A stretch of 11,140 bases of DNA, taken from Gallionellaceae bacterium. Lineage in GTDB: Bacteria > Pseudomonadota > Gammaproteobacteria > Burkholderiales > Gallionellaceae. The stretch is taken from NCBI GenBank assembly GCA_030646595.1, contig JAUSKS010000114.1:1-11140 (forward strand), given 5' to 3'. Position numbers and translations under genes: made by a program. This document shows positions 3,757 through 11,140 of the stretch, piece after piece. Within the stretch, counting starts at the first letter, position 1. Every line of letters begins with the position of its first letter. Below the pieces are notes generated by a model that saw only the letters and a program-made list of their open reading frames with translations, made no database searches and was not told where the DNA came from.

Positions 3757-5691
3757 TCAGTAAGGGATGGCGGCGAGGGCTGCGGTGAAGAGGTTTTCTA
3801 ACTCGTGCGTATAGCGCACTCCATCCGCCAGCGGTGAGGATTCAATATTTTGACGCAAATTAGTGCGTATGGTTACCAGTGCATCTTTATTGTTTGCTAA
3901 GGTCACCGCCAGATCGATATATTCCTCGATCGAATTAGCAATCAGTTGTTTTAGTCCAGCCGCTACCAGTATGCTTGCCCCCCCATTACCGCCTGGGGTC
4001 GGTGCGGCATAGGTTATGAAAGGGACACCCATCCACAGCGACTCACATGACACAGTCCCGCCTGCATAGGGAAATGTATCCAATGTTAAGTCTGCTAATT
4101 GGTAGTAACAGAGATATTGTGTATATGGTTTTGGTTCAAGAATGACCAAGCGATTATCCAAGATCCCGGCATCCACCAAATAAGTTTTCAAGCGTTGCCC
4201 GGCTTCCTTCCCCCAAGCGACCGTTAATAGTTTCCCTTGCGGTACGCGGCGGAGTATCTCGCACCAAGCAGCAAGGAGGGTGTCATTCATTTTGGCGGTG
4301 TTGTGAAAAGCGCCAAAAATAAATTCATTGCTGCTAATGCATGGAGCAGGAACGCAATCCGGTATGTTCTCGTCTGGCATATAGCACCATTGGCTATTGG
4401 GCATACGCAAAATTTTTTCGGAAAAAAATGCCTCCATGTTGGGCGGGCAGGCGATACTATCAGAGACCCGATAACCGATAGCTTTCATTCCGCTCGTGTT
4501 CATATAACCCAGCATGGTGACTTGAACGGGTGCCGGCTTGTAGGCCAAGGCCAGCAGCTTGTTCCCAGCCGTGTGTCCAGCCAAGTCGACTAAGACATCA
4601 ATACCATCATCCCGGATGTGCTGGGCTAGCGCACGATCATCTAAAGAAGCACAGGGCAACCAATGGTCCGCAAGTGCTTTTAAACGTACGCTCTCGTCAT
4701 CTTCGCGTCCAGCCAGAGAATAACAGAAGACCTCAAAACGATTTCGGTCGTGGTACTTAAAAATATGGCGCACGAAGAAACGCATCGCATGTCGGCGAAA
4801 ATCCGGCGATAGGTAGCCAATTTTGATGCGCTGCGTGGTAGGCTTTGTCAGGCTAGGTGGACGCTCCGGTAGAGGTTCTATGCGACTAAGAAATTGAGCC
4901 GCCCAATTTTGGTGGGCTTGTAATACATCCTCGTTAGGGAAAAAATCATAGTTCAGCGCTGCCAGATAGCTTTGGTAGGCATATAAGTTATTTGGATTTA
5001 TACGCAAAGCTTCTTGGAGATGTTGAATGGCGTCCCGACAATCGCCAAAGCGTATCAAGATGTTAGCGAGATTGATCTGCGCATCAGTGAAATCAGCATT
5101 AAGCGCCACCGCTTGGCGGTAGCATTGTGCAGCGCTGTCAATGTTTTCTTCCTCGTACCACGCTTGGCCTAACGCGTACCAAGCGAAGGCGTGGTTGGGG
5201 TCGATCTTGACAGCTTTTAATAAAAGGTCGATAGCTTCGTGGGAGCGCCGTTCCGAGAGCAAGAAACTACCGAAGTTGACGAGGCCTAAGGTGAGGTTTG
5301 GATCCAAGCGCAACGCTTTGCGATAAGCTGCCTCAGCTTTGTTTTTCTGACCTAGCTGTTTGAGGCTATTCCCCAAATTGCAATGAAAATGGGCAACCGA
5401 AGGTTTGCTGGTGATGGCCAGCGAGATATGACGTACCGATGCGGCGAAATCTCCGTGGCGAAACTCGATCAGTCCTAGGTAATGCAACGCGTCGGGATTG
5501 CTGGGAACGTCAGTGAGAATGCTGCGGTAGATTTTTTCCGCAGCTTCGAATTGCTCGGCTTCGTAGAGTTGAAGCGCCTGCATTAAACGCGGCGATGTGC
5601 CTGTCAAGTTTTGCTGCTCAAGCAATAGACAGCAGCGTTTGTATTTTTTTCCACTGCCGCAGGGGCAGGGATCGTTGCGTGATAACTCCAT
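3757..5691 (-). CDS. SEC-C / TPR / GT41 (O-GlcNAc transferase-like) protein
   Basis: This 644-residue, probably cytoplasmic protein has three parts. Residues 6-21 form a SEC-C zinc motif (NDPCPCGSGKKYKRCC; ligands Cys9, 11, 20, 21). Residues about 36-245 hold roughly six TPR repeats. Residues about 285-640 match the GT41 glycosyltransferase family (OGT/SPINDLY): YLSPDFRRH (293-301), DLAGHTAGN (369-377), LGYMNTSGM (394-402), FGAFHNTAKMN (459-469) and DTFPYAGGT (538-546) followed by SCESLWMGVP. It would be expected to transfer a sugar from a nucleotide sugar to protein Ser/Thr, with the TPRs binding the target; donor and targets are unknown. The stretch PTPGGNGGASIL (565-575) lacks the SRVGASLL pattern I expect there, so activity is not assured. 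ATG 5691 is chosen over the adjacent TTG 5694 because GAGGA lies six bases before it. No sugar-pathway genes adjoin. Confidence 0.9.
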   Translation of the reverse strand: MELSRNDPCPCGSGKKYKRCCLLLEQQNLTGTSPRLMQALQLYEAEQFEAAEKIYRSILTDVPSNPDALHYLGLIEFRHGDFAASVRHISLAITSKPSVAHFHCNLGNSLKQLGQKNKAEAAYRKALRLDPNLTLGLVNFGSFLLSERRSHEAIDLLLKAVKIDPNHAFAWYALGQAWYEEENIDSAAQCYRQAVALNADFTDAQINLANILIRFGDCRDAIQHLQEALRINPNNLYAYQSYLAALNYDFFPNEDVLQAHQNWAAQFLSRIEPLPERPPSLTKPTTQRIKIGYLSPDFRRHAMRFFVRHIFKYHDRNRFEVFCYSLAGREDDESVRLKALADHWLPCASLDDRALAQHIRDDGIDVLVDLAGHTAGNKLLALAYKPAPVQVTMLGYMNTSGMKAIGYRVSDSIACPPNMEAFFSEKILRMPNSQWCYMPDENIPDCVPAPCISSNEFIFGAFHNTAKMNDTLLAAWCEILRRVPQGKLLTVAWGKEAGQRLKTYLVDAGILDNRLVILEPKPYTQYLCYYQLADLTLDTFPYAGGTVSCESLWMGVPFITYAAPTPGGNGGASILVAAGLKQLIANSIEEYIDLAVTLANNKDALVTIRTNLRQNIESSPLADGVRYTHELENLFTAALAAIPY

Positions 5692-5697
5692 CAAGCA

Positions 5698-5702
5698 TCC
5701 TC
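5698..5702 (-). promoter_or_regulatory. Ribosome binding site for the GT41-like gene
   Basis: GAGGA lies six bases before ATG 5691 on the minus strand. The in-frame TTG at 5694 would be only three bases away, which favours the ATG. No clear promoter was seen just upstream. Confidence 0.6.
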
Positions 5703-6003
5703 TAGCTTTTCTCGCTGTGCGGTCGATGTGCTCTTTCCAACATAATTTGGGTGATCTTCAGGTCGTAGCTCAATTGAGGTTCAGCCACAGCTACGTTCCG
5801 GGGTCCAGCATTCCTTGACAATCTGGTGCAGCTCGGTAGCACAGTAATAGCAGGTAAATGTTCATCTGGGTGGTGTAAACACTCGTGCAAAATTTTTCCA
5901 TCTGTACCGGGGGCATTTTCCAGCATGTTCTGTGGATAGGTAGCGCGTGAATTTACTACTTATCCGTTGGCTTGCACCTTATCAATCCGTGAGATGCTAG
6001 TCA

Positions 6004-6025
6004 AGTAAGCAAGACAGTAAGCAAG
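6004..6025. repeat. Two direct copies of AGTAAGCAAG
   Basis: The ten-base unit AGTAAGCAAG occurs at 6004-6013 and again at 6016-6025, a period of twelve bases. It lies just downstream of the hairpin that follows the NHL lipoprotein gene. No function is evident; it may be a small slippage duplication. Confidence 0.5.
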
Positions 6026-6039
6026 GCAAAGCTGAAGGC

Positions 6040-6065
6040 GGAGTTAGTCCAAATCAACTAACTCC
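6040..6065 (-). terminator. Hairpin after the NHL lipoprotein gene, terminator-like
   Basis: A perfect nine-base inverted repeat (GGAGTTAGT / ACTAACTCC) with an eight-base loop starts about eight bases after the TGA at 6074-6076. Its place fits the end of the cytochrome operon. No continuous U tract follows (only GCCTTCAGCTTTGCC), so it may be an imperfect intrinsic terminator or an mRNA 3'-end stabiliser. Confidence 0.5.
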
Positions 6066-6073
6066 TGAGGAAA

Positions 6074-7222
6074 TCAAGGGAGGGTGTTAGGTAACGCCTT
6101 ACTCAGGTATTGGAGTAAGACTACGCGGCTATTAAACATATCAGCTACAAAAATTCTATTGCTGCTATCTGCCCACACGCTGGTTGGTAAATAAAATTGG
6201 CCTATGCCGTCTCCTGTCCCCCCCACGGGCATTAAAAACTCGCCCTTGCGGTTGTATACCAACAGATAGTCATGATAAGACTCTATGATATAAATATTGC
6301 CTTCCATATCTACTGCTACCCCCTTGGGGCGCACCAGGTTACCAATGTTTAGCCCGCGTTCTCCTATGGTCAGCTTGGCTTCACCGCTTATCCCATCCAG
6401 TATTTGTATACGGGCATTCATGGTATCGGTCACATATAATTCCCCATGTGCCCAGGCCAGGTAGGTAGGGAAATTAAATTCCCCGCGCTCTTCACCACGC
6501 TTGCCCAGTGTGCGCAACAATTTGCCTTGTACATCGAATACCTTGATGTCATGAGCATAGGTATCAGCGACGTAGAGTTGCTGGGCGTCAGGATCAAATG
6601 CCACCCCTACCGGGCGTTTCAATATATCCTGGCCAATGTTGCCCAAACTCTTTCCTTGGGAATCCAGCCGCGCCACATAACCCAGTTCGGCATCGGCCAC
6701 ATAAACATCGCTTGCCGCGCCAATGGCGATTCCGGTTGGGCCAATAAAATGATCTAATTTTGAAGCATTTTCCCAGACATCTAAACGGCCTTCCTTCTGG
6801 TTAAACACATAGACTGCCTGGCGGCTGGTATCAGAAATTAAAATACGCTGGCCAACCCAATCCACTGCACCAGATTGCGGTCGCTGTAAGGCAACAGGCT
6901 GAGCATCACTCCCCACCAATCCTACCAGCCAACGAAAAGCAGCGGTAATCTTTTCACCAAAAGTTTTACGGGCTCCTTTAGGGGGGTGAAAATTCTCTTC
7001 GCCTACAAGTTCACCGGCGTAAAGATAGCGCGGTGGTTCACCGCTTTCTTTTTCGGGCCATATTACTTGCGGCAGGTCGCGCTGACCATCGGCATTGATG
7101 GGGCCAGTACCAAAATCCAGCACATCTGGTGTTTTATTTGAAGCGCAGCCCACCATCAGAACGGCAAACGCTATCCCAAAAAACCGTGCCAGACTTACTG
7201 TGAAATTATTATGCACTTTCAT
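6074..7222 (-). CDS. NHL-repeat beta-propeller lipoprotein of the cytochrome cluster
   Basis: This 382-residue protein begins with a signal peptide and lipobox (VLMVGC, lipidated Cys26), so it should be membrane-anchored and exposed to the periplasm or outer surface. Residues about 115-375 form a repetitive NHL-type propeller, seen as recurring VYVADAELGY, LYVADTYAHD, LYVTDTMNAR, IYIIESYHDY and IFVADMFNSR segments about 45-50 residues apart. Residues 50-110 form a leading segment with RYLYAGELVGEENF. There is no CxxCH, so it is not itself a cytochrome. NHL propellers usually bind proteins or ligands; here a scaffold or assembly role for the neighbouring cytochromes is inferred. ATG 7222 has a strong GGAGGA site five bases upstream. 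It is the last gene of the cluster, 184 bases after the last cytochrome and followed by a hairpin. Confidence 0.9.
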   Translation of the reverse strand: MKVHNNFTVSLARFFGIAFAVLMVGCASNKTPDVLDFGTGPINADGQRDLPQVIWPEKESGEPPRYLYAGELVGEENFHPPKGARKTFGEKITAAFRWLVGLVGSDAQPVALQRPQSGAVDWVGQRILISDTSRQAVYVFNQKEGRLDVWENASKLDHFIGPTGIAIGAASDVYVADAELGYVARLDSQGKSLGNIGQDILKRPVGVAFDPDAQQLYVADTYAHDIKVFDVQGKLLRTLGKRGEERGEFNFPTYLAWAHGELYVTDTMNARIQILDGISGEAKLTIGERGLNIGNLVRPKGVAVDMEGNIYIIESYHDYLLVYNRKGEFLMPVGGTGDGIGQFYLPTSVWADSSNRIFVADMFNSRVVLLQYLSKALPNTLP

Positions 7223-7406
7223 TGCAATCCTCCGGCAACTTCATCAAGTTGGATTATGCACACACACCATGGCTGTGCTTTGATTCACGGAATGATATTT
7301 TTTACAGAGACAAGCAATAGCATACACTGTACCTTCAATGCTCGCCAACATCCTGATAATTATTGCGTGTCCGTAACAGAGCTAGGCTGGAATCCAGGAA
7401 AATTTA
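7223..7406 (-). other. 184-base spacer between the cytochromes and the NHL gene
   Basis: This is the only long gap inside the cluster. On the minus strand TTGGCG and TATGCT, 18 bases apart (about 7347-7318), make a weak promoter candidate, so the NHL gene may have its own transcript. There is no clear terminator after the double stop TAATAA of the preceding gene; the CTGGAATCCAG palindrome at 7387-7397 is too tight to form a useful stem-loop. Confidence 0.3.
7228..7233 (-). promoter_or_regulatory. Strong ribosome binding site of the NHL lipoprotein gene
   Basis: GGAGGA lies five bases before ATG 7222. It is stronger than the sites of most cytochrome genes upstream and allows translation independent of them. 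Confidence 0.7.
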
Positions 7407-7799
7407 TTATTTATAGCCAGGCCCGCGGGTCGGATCACCCCGCTGTATGCCGGAAGAGAGGCCGGGCAAGCCTGAATGACACATATCGCAACGGTCCAGA
7501 CTCCAGGCAATTTTATTTTCATTGTTGTGGCACATACCGCAAAACTTACCATCCACAAGTTCTGCCATGGTTATGTTGTTAGCCCCTACCTTCATTTTAA
7601 AGCCTTCGTCGTTGTGACATACATTGCAGGTAAACCGGATACGATGAAACCAATGGGGGAAAATAACGGGGCGCATCCCTGCTTGTTCTGCCCGCTTGTT
7701 AATAACCACATCGGCGTATTCTGCCCATGCTGGTGTTATCAACGTCGTACTTAATATTAATATCGCCATCCATGATGGCAGAGGTACCTTATCTATCAT
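7407..7799 (-). CDS. Secreted triheme c7-type cytochrome (short type, copy 2)
   Basis: This is a 130-residue periplasmic or exported electron carrier. Residues 1-26 look like a Sec signal peptide cut after AWA. The mature part is one triheme module with CNVCH (58-62), CGMCH (87-91) and CDMCH (104-108). FPHWFH supplies His49 and His52 as likely distal haem ligands, followed by the GANNITM stretch typical of c7 / 'nanowire 3-heme' domains. Only two spare histidines serve three haems; conserved Met78 is a candidate ligand for the third. It closely resembles the product of 9304-9816 (shared EYxDVVIN and AGMRPVIFPHWFHR). Its ATG overlaps the stop of the upstream gene (ATGA), and GGAGG lies six bases before it (7806-7810), which points to coupled translation. 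It ends in TAATAA. The haem-protein call is secure; its redox partner is inferred. Confidence 0.95.
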   Translation of the reverse strand: MIDKVPLPSWMAILILSTTLITPAWAEYADVVINKRAEQAGMRPVIFPHWFHRIRFTCNVCHNDEGFKMKVGANNITMAELVDGKFCGMCHNNENKIAWSLDRCDMCHSGLPGLSSGIQRGDPTRGPGYK

Positions 7800-8506
7800 G
7801 GTATGCCTCCGCCTTTATTAGCTGATGGATTAACAAGGGACGACGGTATACGTTGTACGCTGTGACAACGGCTGCATTCGGTAAGGGAAAATGCGACTGC
7901 GCTATGACAAATACCACATTGTTCCCCTTCCAGAATTTTATACATTCTGATGGGATTAGCCCCTTTTTGTGGAATAAAAATCGCCGGGTGACAATTAGCA
8001 CAAGCCAACCACATGGTATGTGCGCGGTGCGGAAACCGAACGGGAGGCATGCTGCCATTTGGATTGAGCAGAATATCCATATCCATCACCGGCGGTTCAA
8101 CTTCTATCCCCGTTCCAGTAGCGATATTTCGGCGGGGTCTAATAGCACCACTGGTGATTGCCTGCACCCAGTCGACCAAGTTATCTGCCTTGCTGACCAT
8201 TAATCCGGGGCTACCTCCAAATGCATTGATAACAGGACGGGCCTTGTTGGCAGGGAGCTTGGATAGTTCTTCACGCGGTTCCTGATGCAATTGAAAACCC
8301 GGATTTCCAGGATCGCGCAAGCCGTCTACATCATGTAGTTTATCCTTAGCCAGTGGTAGCCATTTGTCATCTACTGAGGCAGTTTGTGCTGGGACCACGC
8401 TGGGCTTCTCCACCGTAGTAACAGGCTCAGTATTTACACAGGCAACCTGTATTACCCCCAGCCCCAATACTAATGGAGCAAGTATCCAAAAATCGGCTTG
8501 CTTCAT
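7796..8506 (-). CDS. Secreted triheme c7-type cytochrome with N-terminal extension (long type, copy 2)
   Basis: This is a 236-residue exported cytochrome. The first 23 residues form a hydrophobic signal. VAC at 21-23 resembles a lipobox, but Gln at -3 is unfavourable, so lipidation is doubtful. Residues about 45-155 form a haem-free region. The triheme module follows: FPHRAH (His160, His163), CANCH (169-173), CGICH (197-201) and CSRCH (211-215), with QKGANPIRM between the first two sites. The whole protein past the signal aligns with the product of 8503-9303, sharing DPxNxG, VxWVxA, IxPR, MDMxI and WLACxNCHPAIF, so the pair are paralogues. Its start overlaps the upstream stop (ATGA) and has only a weak ribosome site, suggesting translational coupling. 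It probably passes electrons between the barrel-associated cytochromes and the periplasm; this is inferred from context. Confidence 0.94.
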   Translation of the reverse strand: MKQADFWILAPLVLGLGVIQVACVNTEPVTTVEKPSVVPAQTASVDDKWLPLAKDKLHDVDGLRDPGNPGFQLHQEPREELSKLPANKARPVINAFGGSPGLMVSKADNLVDWVQAITSGAIRPRRNIATGTGIEVEPPVMDMDILLNPNGSMPPVRFPHRAHTMWLACANCHPAIFIPQKGANPIRMYKILEGEQCGICHSAVAFSLTECSRCHSVQRIPSSLVNPSANKGGGIP

Positions 8507-9303
8507 GGTACGTCCATCTCATTCTTGGACAATTCCTTTTTTTGCGAATGGCACAGGCGACATTCAGAAGGTGGAAATGCAACTTTACCGTGACACACTC
8601 CGCATTTTTCTCCACTCAAAATTAAACGCATATTGATTTGGTTGGCTCCCTTCTGCGGCACGAAAATAGCTGGATGGCAATTGGAGCAAGCTAACCATTC
8701 AGTATGCTGTTTATGCGGAAAAACCACATTGGGTATGGATCCTCGCGGGGTGCGTATGATATTCATATCCATTACCAGTCCTTCAGCTTGGGCATCTGCA
8801 ATATCCCAGCGGGGAATAATTTTTTTCTCCCCCAACGCAGCAACCCAGTTCACACGGTTGCCAGCCTGATTGCGCGGTAAATCAGCGTAAGCCTCCAGGG
8901 GCACATGTAACATATTAATGCCTTCGTTGGCAGGGTCATGTATGCCATCCTGGGTCGGCGGTAAATTATAGGTTTGCAACAAGCGCATCGTGCGATTAAA
9001 AGGTATCGCAATATTAGCCTGAACCTGCTCCTGAGCCGCAGCTTCGGCATCTGCCTGGGCTTTAGCAGCTGCCAAGGCAGATGCTCGGGCTGTGGCACGA
9101 ATACTTGCAATCGGAGAACCCGAAGGTGTTCGGGCTGGTATCTCCGGGGTTGGTAGAGCTGTTTTTTGCGTGGGCACAGCTTGTTGCTTTTTAGACTTGT
9201 TTGACTGTGTGGCTGCATTGGCTACCTGCAAAAGCCCTACTACAAACAGCAAGACAAGGGTCAGCTTTGCAACTCCGTCCTTTATCTGCATGATCCTGAC
9301 CAT
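8503..9303 (-). CDS. Secreted triheme c7-type cytochrome with Ala-rich stalk (long type, copy 1)
   Basis: This is a 266-residue exported cytochrome. A signal peptide ends near residue 30 (VANA). Residues 31-62 are Pro/Lys/Gln-rich and about 64-97 are strongly Ala-rich and helical-looking, a likely stalk. A haem-free region (about 100-193) shared with the 7796-8506 product comes next, then the triheme module: FPHKQH (His197, His200), CSNCH (206-210), CGVCH (234-238) and CRLCH (248-252), with QKGANQINM in between. ATG 9303 directly follows the upstream TAA; ATG 9291 (Met5) is also possible, since it leaves a compact signal peptide, but its AGGA site is only two bases away. The stop overlaps the next start (ATGA). 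The stalk, absent from the paralogue, may hold the haem module away from a membrane or span part of the periplasm; that is inference. Confidence 0.94.
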   Translation of the reverse strand: MVRIMQIKDGVAKLTLVLLFVVGLLQVANAATQSNKSKKQQAVPTQKTALPTPEIPARTPSGSPIASIRATARASALAAAKAQADAEAAAQEQVQANIAIPFNRTMRLLQTYNLPPTQDGIHDPANEGINMLHVPLEAYADLPRNQAGNRVNWVAALGEKKIIPRWDIADAQAEGLVMDMNIIRTPRGSIPNVVFPHKQHTEWLACSNCHPAIFVPQKGANQINMRLILSGEKCGVCHGKVAFPPSECRLCHSQKKELSKNEMDVP

Positions 9304-9816
9304 TTATTGAGGTGCCTGTTCAGGGCGTAGTAATTTATGGATAGCGCCTTTATGTTCGTAGGTGGGCATATCCCAAGAGACGAGGGGCAAGGGTGCAATA
9401 AATTTCTGTACCGTATTTTCATGCACTTGGGTAGGCGTACCTGGTTTGCCCGAATGGCAGGTATTGCAGTTTTCTACATTCCACGCAATCTCACCATTGT
9501 GGCAGGCACCGCAAAACTTCCCATCGAGAATTTGGGACATTGTTATCTGGTTGGCACCTGCTTTTAATTTGAAACCCAGATCAGCATGACAAACCTTGCA
9601 AGTGAAACGCATGCGATGAAACCAATGCGGAAAAATAACTGGGCGCATACCTGCTGCATCTGCATAGTTATTAATCACTACATCGCCATATTCTGCCCGT
9701 GCATAGGGAGTACTGCTTAACAGCCCCATTGCTATGGCATACAATATATAATTTGGCGATATAAAATAACCTTCTGTTTTCAGTTTCCCTTGTTTCATGA
9801 TGGCAATTTTCATCAT
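9304..9816 (-). CDS. Secreted triheme c7-type cytochrome with C-terminal tail (short type, copy 1)
   Basis: This is a 170-residue exported cytochrome and the first of four in the cluster. The signal peptide is long, cut near residue 41 (YARA before EYGDVV). The triheme module has FPHWFH (His64, His67), CKVCH (73-77), CGACH (102-106) and CNTCH (117-121), with GANQITM between the first two sites. It is the near twin of the 7407-7799 product, but after the third haem it carries a tail of about 50 residues with three extra histidines (132, 155, 160) and WDMPTYEHKG. It starts 40 bases after the beta-barrel gene and ends in TAA directly abutting the next ATG. The true start is uncertain: ATGs at 9816, 9813 and 9798 are in frame and none has a good ribosome site. 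Electron transfer alongside the barrel is inferred. Confidence 0.94.
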   Translation of the reverse strand: MMKIAIMKQGKLKTEGYFISPNYILYAIAMGLLSSTPYARAEYGDVVINNYADAAGMRPVIFPHWFHRMRFTCKVCHADLGFKLKAGANQITMSQILDGKFCGACHNGEIAWNVENCNTCHSGKPGTPTQVHENTVQKFIAPLPLVSWDMPTYEHKGAIHKLLRPEQAPQ

Positions 9817-9856
9817 CTTTATTTTTTACAATGTACTGTTGATACGCATCAGAAAG

Positions 9857-11140
9857 TTATAAATTTCCAAAACTGCGCCCGAGATGCAACATAATCGAAT
9901 TGCTGGTCGCTTGGCCATATTGGGCAATAGCTACCGTTAGCCTTACATTAGCGCGCCCTATGCGGTAATCCAGCGACTGATCAAGCGCAGAGCTGGAAAC
10001 GGCCGGTTGTATAGACTGCCAGTTGGGATTCCTTGATTGCGTTCTGTTCATCATATAGGTTAATGCATAACGTAAATTTTGCACATCAAAAGCGCGGGTA
10101 TGCTGATAAGTAAGGTTGGCATAAGCACTGGTTGAAACCTGCCCTGTCTCATTTTTAGACCATTGTTGCGTGGCATTAGCTCTCATATTGGCATTAGCAG
10201 AAATACGGTTTACTGCCTCAGCCCCTAAGGAGGCAGCTTGATTATGCATTGGAGTAGCCCCCCCTATAGTGCGCACATCAGATACTGATCCAGATACAGA
10301 CCCTGATAACGTTCCTCGGGAGGCTGGCCTCCAAGTTAGCCCACCCGTATGGCTAAGCGTACGATTTTGGCCAGCCAGCCGATCGTTCTCAGCCAAGAAA
10401 TCCTGACTGACTGAAAGATTCAATGATGCTCCGCCACCAAGCGCATAAGGGGTGCTTAATCTATGCCCCGCCCCCCCAGTAATAGCTTGATTGGAAGGGG
10501 AGGTAGTATTGGATTGGTGGCGCATCCCGCCATTCGCACCCCAATTATAGGAAGAGTCTCCAAATTTAATAGTATCTGATTGGTAGTTGGATCGGAAATT
10601 TTCCGTTAGTGTTCGGTTCGGAATGCCATCATTTTTACTATTGGTTAACGTCCCATCTAGGTAAAAACGTAGGTTACGTGTGTGGTCGTAGCTCACTCCA
10701 GCATTCAAATTTTGACTTTGTGAAGTACTCGATATGCCATTTGCATCAGATACAGAATCATTGATGCGCACACCACTATTTACAAAAAAAGGTAATTCTG
10801 GATCAGGTTGCCAATTAGCATTAGTGTTGGCCTGTAAATAGCGATTATGAAACTCGCTACTATTAATTGTATTATTCCCTGAACGAATATTCGATTGCTC
10901 TATACTCGCGGAAGATGCTGCCGAGAACAGGGGATCTGGTCGGTAAGTATGCCGTCCCGTAATATTGTTGGATCGCAAATCTGAGCTTCCCAATGCCCAA
11001 ACCGCTTCGGTGCGGCGCGCGTCTAAACCAAAAGTCTGTTTATCAAACGTGGTTGAGTAATTACCTTGCAACCCTGAATTAGCGTTACCAGCCCCCTCTG
11101 TTGTGTTCCATGTATTGCGATCATAACCTACACCATAGCG
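9857..11140 (-). CDS. Putative outer-membrane beta-barrel protein, 5' end beyond the window
   Basis: The reading frame is open to the right edge, so only the C-terminal 427 residues are visible. The sequence is rich in Asn, Ser, Thr and Gly and made of alternating short stretches typical of amphipathic beta-strands separated by polar turns, for example NLRFYLDGTL, ASLNLSVSQDF, TLSGSVSGSV and NVRLTVAIAQYG. It ends in SIMLHLGRSFGNL, close to a barrel C-terminal signal with the aromatic residue three places before the last residue. No CxxCH and no membrane helix are seen. Lying first of the visible genes before four triheme cytochromes, it resembles the barrel partner of porin-cytochrome complexes (Mtr/Pio-like in concept); I see no specific family motif. 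A TTG at 11071 could be mistaken for a start, but coding continues above it (RYGVGYDRNTW). Barrel identity is inferred from composition and context. Confidence 0.75.
   Translation of the reverse strand, partial: RYGVGYDRNTWNTTEGAGNANSGLQGNYSTTFDKQTFGLDARRTEAVWALGSSDLRSNNITGRHTYRPDPLFSAASSASIEQSNIRSGNNTINSSEFHNRYLQANTNANWQPDPELPFFVNSGVRINDSVSDANGISSTSQSQNLNAGVSYDHTRNLRFYLDGTLTNSKNDGIPNRTLTENFRSNYQSDTIKFGDSSYNWGANGGMRHQSNTTSPSNQAITGGAGHRLSTPYALGGGASLNLSVSQDFLAENDRLAGQNRTLSHTGGLTWRPASRGTLSGSVSGSVSDVRTIGGATPMHNQAASLGAEAVNRISANANMRANATQQWSKNETGQVSTSAYANLTYQHTRAFDVQNLRYALTYMMNRTQSRNPNWQSIQPAVSSSALDQSLDYRIGRANVRLTVAIAQYGQATSNSIMLHLGRSFGNL

Follow-up and report, generated by a model that had tools for sequence, protein, structure and literature searches.

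The 11,140-bp window analysed here, one entire contig (G000:C294) of a Gallionellaceae genome, very probably carries the greater part of a Uet-type outer-membrane conduit, in which a UetC barrel, a periplasmic triheme relay and an NHL scaffold or assembly factor would work with UetA on the outside and, in relatives, with UetJ. We regard the locus as a real, open-frame, partly assembled and rearranged cluster of a design that is already known. The accessible text of PMC10734462, citing Eddie et al. 2022, places the Uet (undecaheme electron transfer) pathway in Tenderiales and some Gallionella, and lists, with predicted functions, the undecaheme UetJ, the extracellular tetraheme UetA, the triheme UetDEG, the isomerase UetB, the NHL proteins UetHI and the barrel UetC. 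An earlier, sequence-only reading of the window was right to see a porin-cytochrome cluster with four small triheme proteins; the novelty that it proposed for the design falls away against the Uet cluster described in that text.

Gene content of the window

Read on the minus strand in the order of transcription, the barrel frame is followed by four cytochrome genes, the NHL gene, a glycosyltransferase gene and gltB (Table 1). The window ends within the barrel gene and, because it is a whole contig, what lies to its right is unreadable; the source genome comprises 2.31 Mb in 333 contigs and is 83.85% complete. Successive cytochrome genes overlap by 4, 4 and 0 bp (in genomic order), with 40 bp between the barrel gene and the first of them and 184 bp ahead of the NHL gene, in keeping with the earlier description of these genes as lying mostly end to end. 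All five complete operon genes are open, with every haem motif and the conserved methionine kept, and the truncated barrel frame contains no internal stop. The SEC-C/TPR glycosyltransferase gene is a neighbour that stands outside the conduit.

Table 1. Features of the window, listed from the barrel gene to gltB
Feature	Position	Strand	Evidence
UetC-type outer-membrane beta-barrel, C-terminal 427 residues, start cut by contig end	9857..11140	-	same-genus UetC match
UetD-like triheme c7-type cytochrome, 170 aa, three CxxCH	9304..9816	-	PF14522 E=7e-16; TIGR04257 E=2e-19; signal peptide by eye
UetE-like triheme c7-type cytochrome, 266 aa, N-terminal extension and C-terminal triheme domain	8503..9303	-	Cytochrome_C7, TIGR04257, alignment with relatives
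E2, second UetE-like triheme cytochrome, 236 aa	7796..8506	-	Cytochrome_C7, TIGR04257; equivalent position in relatives
UetG-like triheme c7-type cytochrome, 130 aa, paralog of the UetD-like protein	7407..7799	-	Cytochrome_C7, TIGR04257
UetI-like NHL propeller lipoprotein, 382 aa	6074..7222	-	NHL E=2e-20
379-bp stretch at the uetJ position of relatives	5695..6073		tblastn: no uetJ trace
SEC-C/TPR protein with family 41 glycosyltransferase domain	3757..5694	-	Pfam domain search
gltB, glutamate synthase large subunit, first 1205 residues	1..3615	-	NF008730 above cut-off

The NHL protein passes the Pfam NHL cut-off and is 59% identical to the NHL protein that precedes UetJ at locus L029, and 68% identical to that of the same-genus locus L128. 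Its lipobox, like the signal peptides of the cytochromes, was judged by eye from the translation, and on that footing it is the propeller lipoprotein it had been taken for.

Four separate triheme cytochromes

Each of the four cytochromes contains three CxxCH motifs, 12 in total, and when the residues of each protein were shuffled 20,000 times, no shuffle yielded three or more. Each scores above the curated thresholds of both Pfam Cytochrome_C7 (PF14522) and NCBIfam TIGR04257. The claim of four exported triheme proteins with twelve haems on one strand is thereby upheld, with export itself resting on the visual reading of the signal peptides. The UetG-like protein shares 72% identity with its counterpart at L029. 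UetF is missing from the operon, where the 4-bp overlap of the E and E2 genes leaves no room for it between them.

The sequence of the 170-aa protein finds a match in each of the four domains of PDB 3ov0, which we take to be the GSU1996 dodecaheme cytochrome of Geobacter, and the D/G profile likewise matches it in four stretches. The methionine of the ITM motif of the window protein aligns with residues 209 and 287 of the 3ov0 chain, and this methionine is invariant in both the D/G-type and the E-type alignments with relatives. In the available part of PMC10138318, Met209 and Met287 of GSU1996 are axial haem ligands and each domain holds one His–Met haem. The 130-aa protein has just two histidines outside its CxxCH motifs, which, with the methionine, is consistent with bis-His ligation of two haems and His–Met ligation of the third. 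Judged by sequence, then, the window cytochromes have the GSU1996-type c7 domain with three CxxCH and one predicted His–Met haem. Given this kinship and the shared methionine, the operon reads like an unfused GSU1996: the triheme domain is alike by sequence in all four domains, whereas GSU1996 carries its four domains in one chain and the window distributes them over four separate proteins, two of which bear long N-terminal extensions.

A predicted 28-stranded barrel

No Pfam family scores above cut-off in the barrel frame. It does, however, share 39% identity (E=4e-70) with residues 272-708 of its positional counterpart, a protein of 709 residues, in the same-genus genome G016. The AlphaFold2 model of the latter, computed from an alignment of 67 sequences, has a mean pLDDT of 84.9, a pTM of 0.71 and 28 long strands as counted from the listed elements; mapped onto it, the window part of the barrel corresponds to roughly the last 21 of the 28. 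The barrel-like character ascribed to this frame is thus sustained by its resemblance to a modelled relative. The N-terminus of the barrel was not found in the source genome assembly.

Foldseek returns MtrB of the Mtr complex as the third match to the G016 model (E=7e-9), at a TM-score of 0.35-0.37 and an rmsd of 12, with many other barrels equally good; TonB-dependent transporters, LptD and ushers are also matched. Since MtrB fits no better than other barrels, the model does not show a cytochrome inside the barrel. Moreover, none of 67 proteins chosen for their position at the barrel site of the loci matches the Pfam MtrB_PioB family (PF11854), and neither does the window frame. As modelled, the same-genus UetC has 28 barrel strands and lies outside the MtrB family.

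The cluster therefore shares with MtrAB, MtoAB and PioAB a large outer-membrane barrel within a cytochrome cluster, but its barrel falls outside MtrB_PioB and the window has no decaheme gene; indeed, no window frame, in a stretch that ends within the barrel gene, has more than three CxxCH. A separate decaheme and MtrB/PioB-type (MtoAB-like) pair lies on another contig of the same genome, C197, so Uet need not be the main conduit of this organism. PCC3 and PCC4 of iron oxidisers likewise combine a barrel with several c-type cytochromes. In the accessible text of PMC5566968, most cytochromes of PCC3 carry tens of haems and those of PCC4 have 4, 5 and 10, both accompanied by an inner-membrane protein; many-haem cytochromes and inner-membrane protein alike are absent from the window.

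A cluster split by gltB and its neighbours

UetA is absent beside the barrel gene in the window, and the operon lacks a second NHL gene. A profile search of the source genome finds a UetA-like gene elsewhere (C26:6468-7361, E=7e-86), on a contig that also carries an NHL gene beside UetA, then beta-helix and Kelch proteins, then hemE and gltD on the opposite strand. At its right end this contig encodes a GltB-like C-terminus with a GltD-like gene after it, and the window breaks off inside GltB, which makes it evident that the two contigs adjoin. If GltB has a full length near the 1490 residues of the NF008730 model, the gap between them would be about 1 kb, and UetA would lie some 13 kb from the NHL gene of the window and 17 kb away from the gene for the barrel. 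In this arrangement the Uet cluster falls into two convergent halves, with hemE, gltD, gltB and the glycosyltransferase gene between them.

Set against the published Uet content, the likeness lies in a barrel beside triheme genes, at least three triheme c7 cytochromes and an NHL protein in the window, with a second NHL gene and UetA on C26. The differences are four trihemes where the accessible text of PMC10734462 names three, an operon without UetF or the second NHL gene, the splitting off of UetA, and UetB and UetJ, which were not found in the assembly. For UetB, the peptidylprolyl isomerase of the pathway, the best profile matches in this incomplete assembly (E=1e-20) are PpiD-like and SurA-like isomerases.

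Recurrence of the gene order in relatives

A scan with the 170-aa cytochrome turned up 216 relatives, and gene order was compared in their best 80 loci; the record titles of these span Beta-, Gamma- and Alphaproteobacteria, Magnetococcales and one Planctomycetota. The gene order recurs across these best 80 of 216 loci. At its fullest, the order there runs cytochromes–NHL–UetA(4 haem)–UetB–UetC–D–E–F–E2–G–NHL–UetJ(11 haem)–ResB-like. UetF is an optional member of this order. Around the UetD-like gene, the best 80 of 216 loci hold an E-type gene in at least 77, a D/G-type gene in at least 75, UetB in at least 68, UetA in at least 61, UetC in at least 59 and UetJ in at least 58 (three of these UetJ partial). 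These counts are lower bounds, because loci at contig ends are included and overlapping frames were resolved by score. UetA itself was matched by profile in all 50 genomes tried from the best 80 loci, each with a best E of 2.2e-54 or lower.

A second set of 100 genomes, overlapping in part with the 80 loci and including that of the window, yields 13 matches to the D/G profile at E<=0.001, of which 11 are strong (<1e-50). All 10 strong genomes other than the source have UetJ near the cluster. Such wide presence of UetJ contradicts, for the family, the proposal that small cytochromes stand in for a large one. By its own terms the sequence-only reading was to give way to a large multihaem protein upstream in an already characterised cluster of identical order; such a protein exists in substance as UetJ, although it lies downstream and the characterisation in print is a predicted one.

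A candidate electron path and its alternatives

The path that we favour is drawn from the genes, domains and haem motifs, the conserved order, the barrel model of the relative, and the kinship of UetA and the start of UetJ to OmcE described below. The UetC barrel would cross the outer membrane, and the four exported trihemes would relay electrons across the periplasm between the barrel and carriers in the inner membrane, with the NHL lipoprotein as a putative scaffold or assembly factor. Tetraheme UetA may act on the outer face. In relatives, undecaheme UetJ probably passes through or caps the barrel, and UetJ together with the OmcE-like UetA would take over electrons at and beyond it. Our guess for the family is that flow is inward, from iron or another outside donor. 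In Ca. Tenderia electrophaga, according to the available part of PMC5371394, three triheme genes are among the most highly expressed on the cathode, appear cotranscribed with a TPR gene, and show no significant change between two electrode potentials.

The alternative that survives best is a true UetJ-less conduit, with four trihemes inside and tetraheme UetA outside, the undecaheme having been lost when the cluster split and turned round. In the same-genus genome G011, UetJ (12 CxxCH) follows about 100 bp past the NHL gene; in the source genome, 379 bp past the NHL gene are followed by the glycosyltransferase gene and gltB in its place. With three UetJ proteins as queries, tblastn finds nothing in the window better than E=1, and profile and protein searches of the 84%-complete, 2.31-Mb assembly return no UetJ; what they do find is its relative UetA and a single weak match (E=0.014). 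The rearrangement into convergent halves is consistent with such a loss. Same-genus G004 and G016, whose UetD and UetE look decayed while UetJ is kept, suggest that parts of the system are dispensable within the genus, and partial sets without an adjoining UetJ do exist (e.g. L012, L049, L052, L074, L081). Hence the part of the earlier proposal that foresaw a conduit of another build, lacking a large cytochrome, though unsupported for the family, retains a place in the source species, where UetJ is missing from its usual position and was not found in the assembly.

Absence of UetJ from the source genome nevertheless fits loss and missing assembly alike: in an assembly of 333 contigs, the barrel N-terminus and UetB are missing too. 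Nor does a cluster without an adjoining UetJ imply a genome without one, an idea that we rejected when nine of nine genomes tested proved to hold UetJ or a piece of it elsewhere. These nine were picked from 24 loci lacking an in-locus protein of at least 8 haems, the other 15 lying outside the count. Among those 15 loci, two have a UetJ piece at a contig end, and L049 comes from the same assembly as L029. G105 (L031) was considered as a UetJ-less chromosome and set aside, its UetJ piece stopping just before a 100-N gap. At L074, L081 and L028, UetJ lies about 20 to 50 kb away on the same contig, which demonstrates that split clusters can keep it. Taking both sides together, we consider a UetJ-less conduit in the source species unlikely, with a chance large enough to keep in view.

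Less credit still is due to the idea that the locus is a decaying remnant, stripped of UetJ, UetB and UetF and defunct as a conduit. Its partners are indeed missing, UetD and UetE look decayed in G004 and G016, and 15 of 18 other same-genus genomes searched, some of them incomplete, lack a strong match. Against this stand five complete open genes with intact haem motifs and methionine, signal-like starts (by eye) and a truncated barrel frame free of stops, which together make decay improbable. Lastly, a large import or export pore whose periplasmic cytochromes do some other job, such as electron storage or detoxification, could draw on the resemblance of the barrel model to TonB-dependent transporters, LptD and ushers and on one same-genus triheme of the cluster that is fused to a TonB C-terminal domain, but the frequent company of UetA and UetJ and the strong cathode expression of the Tenderia triheme genes (PMC5371394, as available) leave it barely credible.

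UetA, UetJ and OmcE

The Uet-type conduit that we favour acquires a further dimension from the cytochromes that accompany it. The UetA profile matches PDB 7tfs at E=3e-38 and the UetA of the source genome itself does so at E=1.8e-23, while the match of the UetJ profile to it spans positions 28-254 (E=3e-27). The accessible text of PMC12954529 identifies 7TFS as OmcE and states that there one haem takes a ligand from the next subunit. Examined by eye, the profile alignment of UetA and OmcE brings into register all four CxxCH and four more histidines (TKH, TPH, NDH and the last CHxxH); in the single-sequence alignment of the source UetA, three of the four extra histidines align and the fourth stands beside a gap. 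By sequence kinship, UetA and the start of UetJ belong to the OmcE nanowire family. The likeness to the OmcE tetraheme nanowire pertains to the UetA sequence of the source genome, whose gene lies outside the window, and its polymerisation is putative. The accessible portions of the literature searched, a search outside of which Baquero et al. 2023 falls, contain no statement tying Uet to OmcE.

One could imagine that a Uet cluster gives an OmcE-type nanowire its port in the outer membrane. UetA would polymerise outside, UetJ, whose first four haems are OmcE-like, would dock the filament to the 28-stranded barrel, and the GSU1996-type trihemes would charge it from the periplasm, with the source lineage making do without the adaptor, by small cytochromes alone. 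We hold this fuller scheme to be a long shot. To our knowledge, it is not settled how a cytochrome nanowire connects through the outer membrane with the periplasm. Charging of OmcS by periplasmic PpcABCDE has been proposed (PMC10954620, in its available part).

Taken alone, the window is of modest value, as one additional rearranged Uet locus. What it adds are the GSU1996-like nature of the trihemes, the UetA contig adjoining via gltB, the 28-stranded UetC model and the kinship to OmcE, the last being the point most worth testing. According to record titles, carriers of Uet clusters include isolates of Aromatoleum, Ramlibacter, Dechloromonas and Sphaerotilus. Should UetA prove to form filaments of the OmcE type, a widespread gene cluster would pair a filament with a dedicated barrel and a triheme relay.

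Cytochrome variation among related Uet clusters

In two genomes of the window's genus, G004 and G016, UetD and UetE of the Uet (undecaheme electron transfer) cluster appear to have decayed: pieces of both genes can still be recognised, but their frames are broken and their haem motifs are gone. UetJ, E2 (the second UetE-like gene), G and the two NHL genes have open frames in these genomes. Across a wider set, the best 80 of 216 related loci, 48 of the 85 E-type proteins counted have a fourth haem motif; in the copies that were aligned, this motif falls within additional N-terminal sequence, absent from the window's E-type copy.

In a third same-genus genome, G011, a Uet-cluster triheme cytochrome is fused, by way of a low-complexity linker, with the C-terminal domain of TonB (PF03544, E=4e-17), and the only other TonB-domain matches among 167 sequences are overlapping loci of that genome. 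The same-family genome G023, with tandem UetJ, has D, E and F again at another locus, L130, as an incomplete set that lacks UetJ.

Coordinates of features in related loci and in the window's genome
Feature	Locus	Coordinates	Genome	Strand
UetD + UetE, apparently decayed	L126	8950-9800	G004	
UetD + UetE, apparently decayed	L127	7340-8100	G016	
TonB-triheme cytochrome fusion	L128	348-1976	G011	+
Two UetJ copies, tandem	L129	1530-7304	G023	-
NosD-like right-handed beta-helix + Kelch propeller genes	L125 (C26)	7470-9662	G000 (window's own)	+
Decaheme cytochrome + porin + tetraheme gene set	L139 (C197)	8428-12308	G000	-

UetA and an MtoAB-like conduit in the window's genome

The UetA profile has a second solved match, PDB 9yuq (chain N, E=4e-34), a 16-chain "putative multiheme cytochrome c" that is perhaps another filament. 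On contig C26 of the window's genome, the beta-helix and Kelch genes lie 3' of UetA, where UetB and UetC would be expected. Contig C197 of this genome encodes a DmsE/MtrA-family decaheme cytochrome, an MtrB/PioB-family porin and a c554-type tetraheme protein; together they are an MtoAB-like conduit of the conventional kind.
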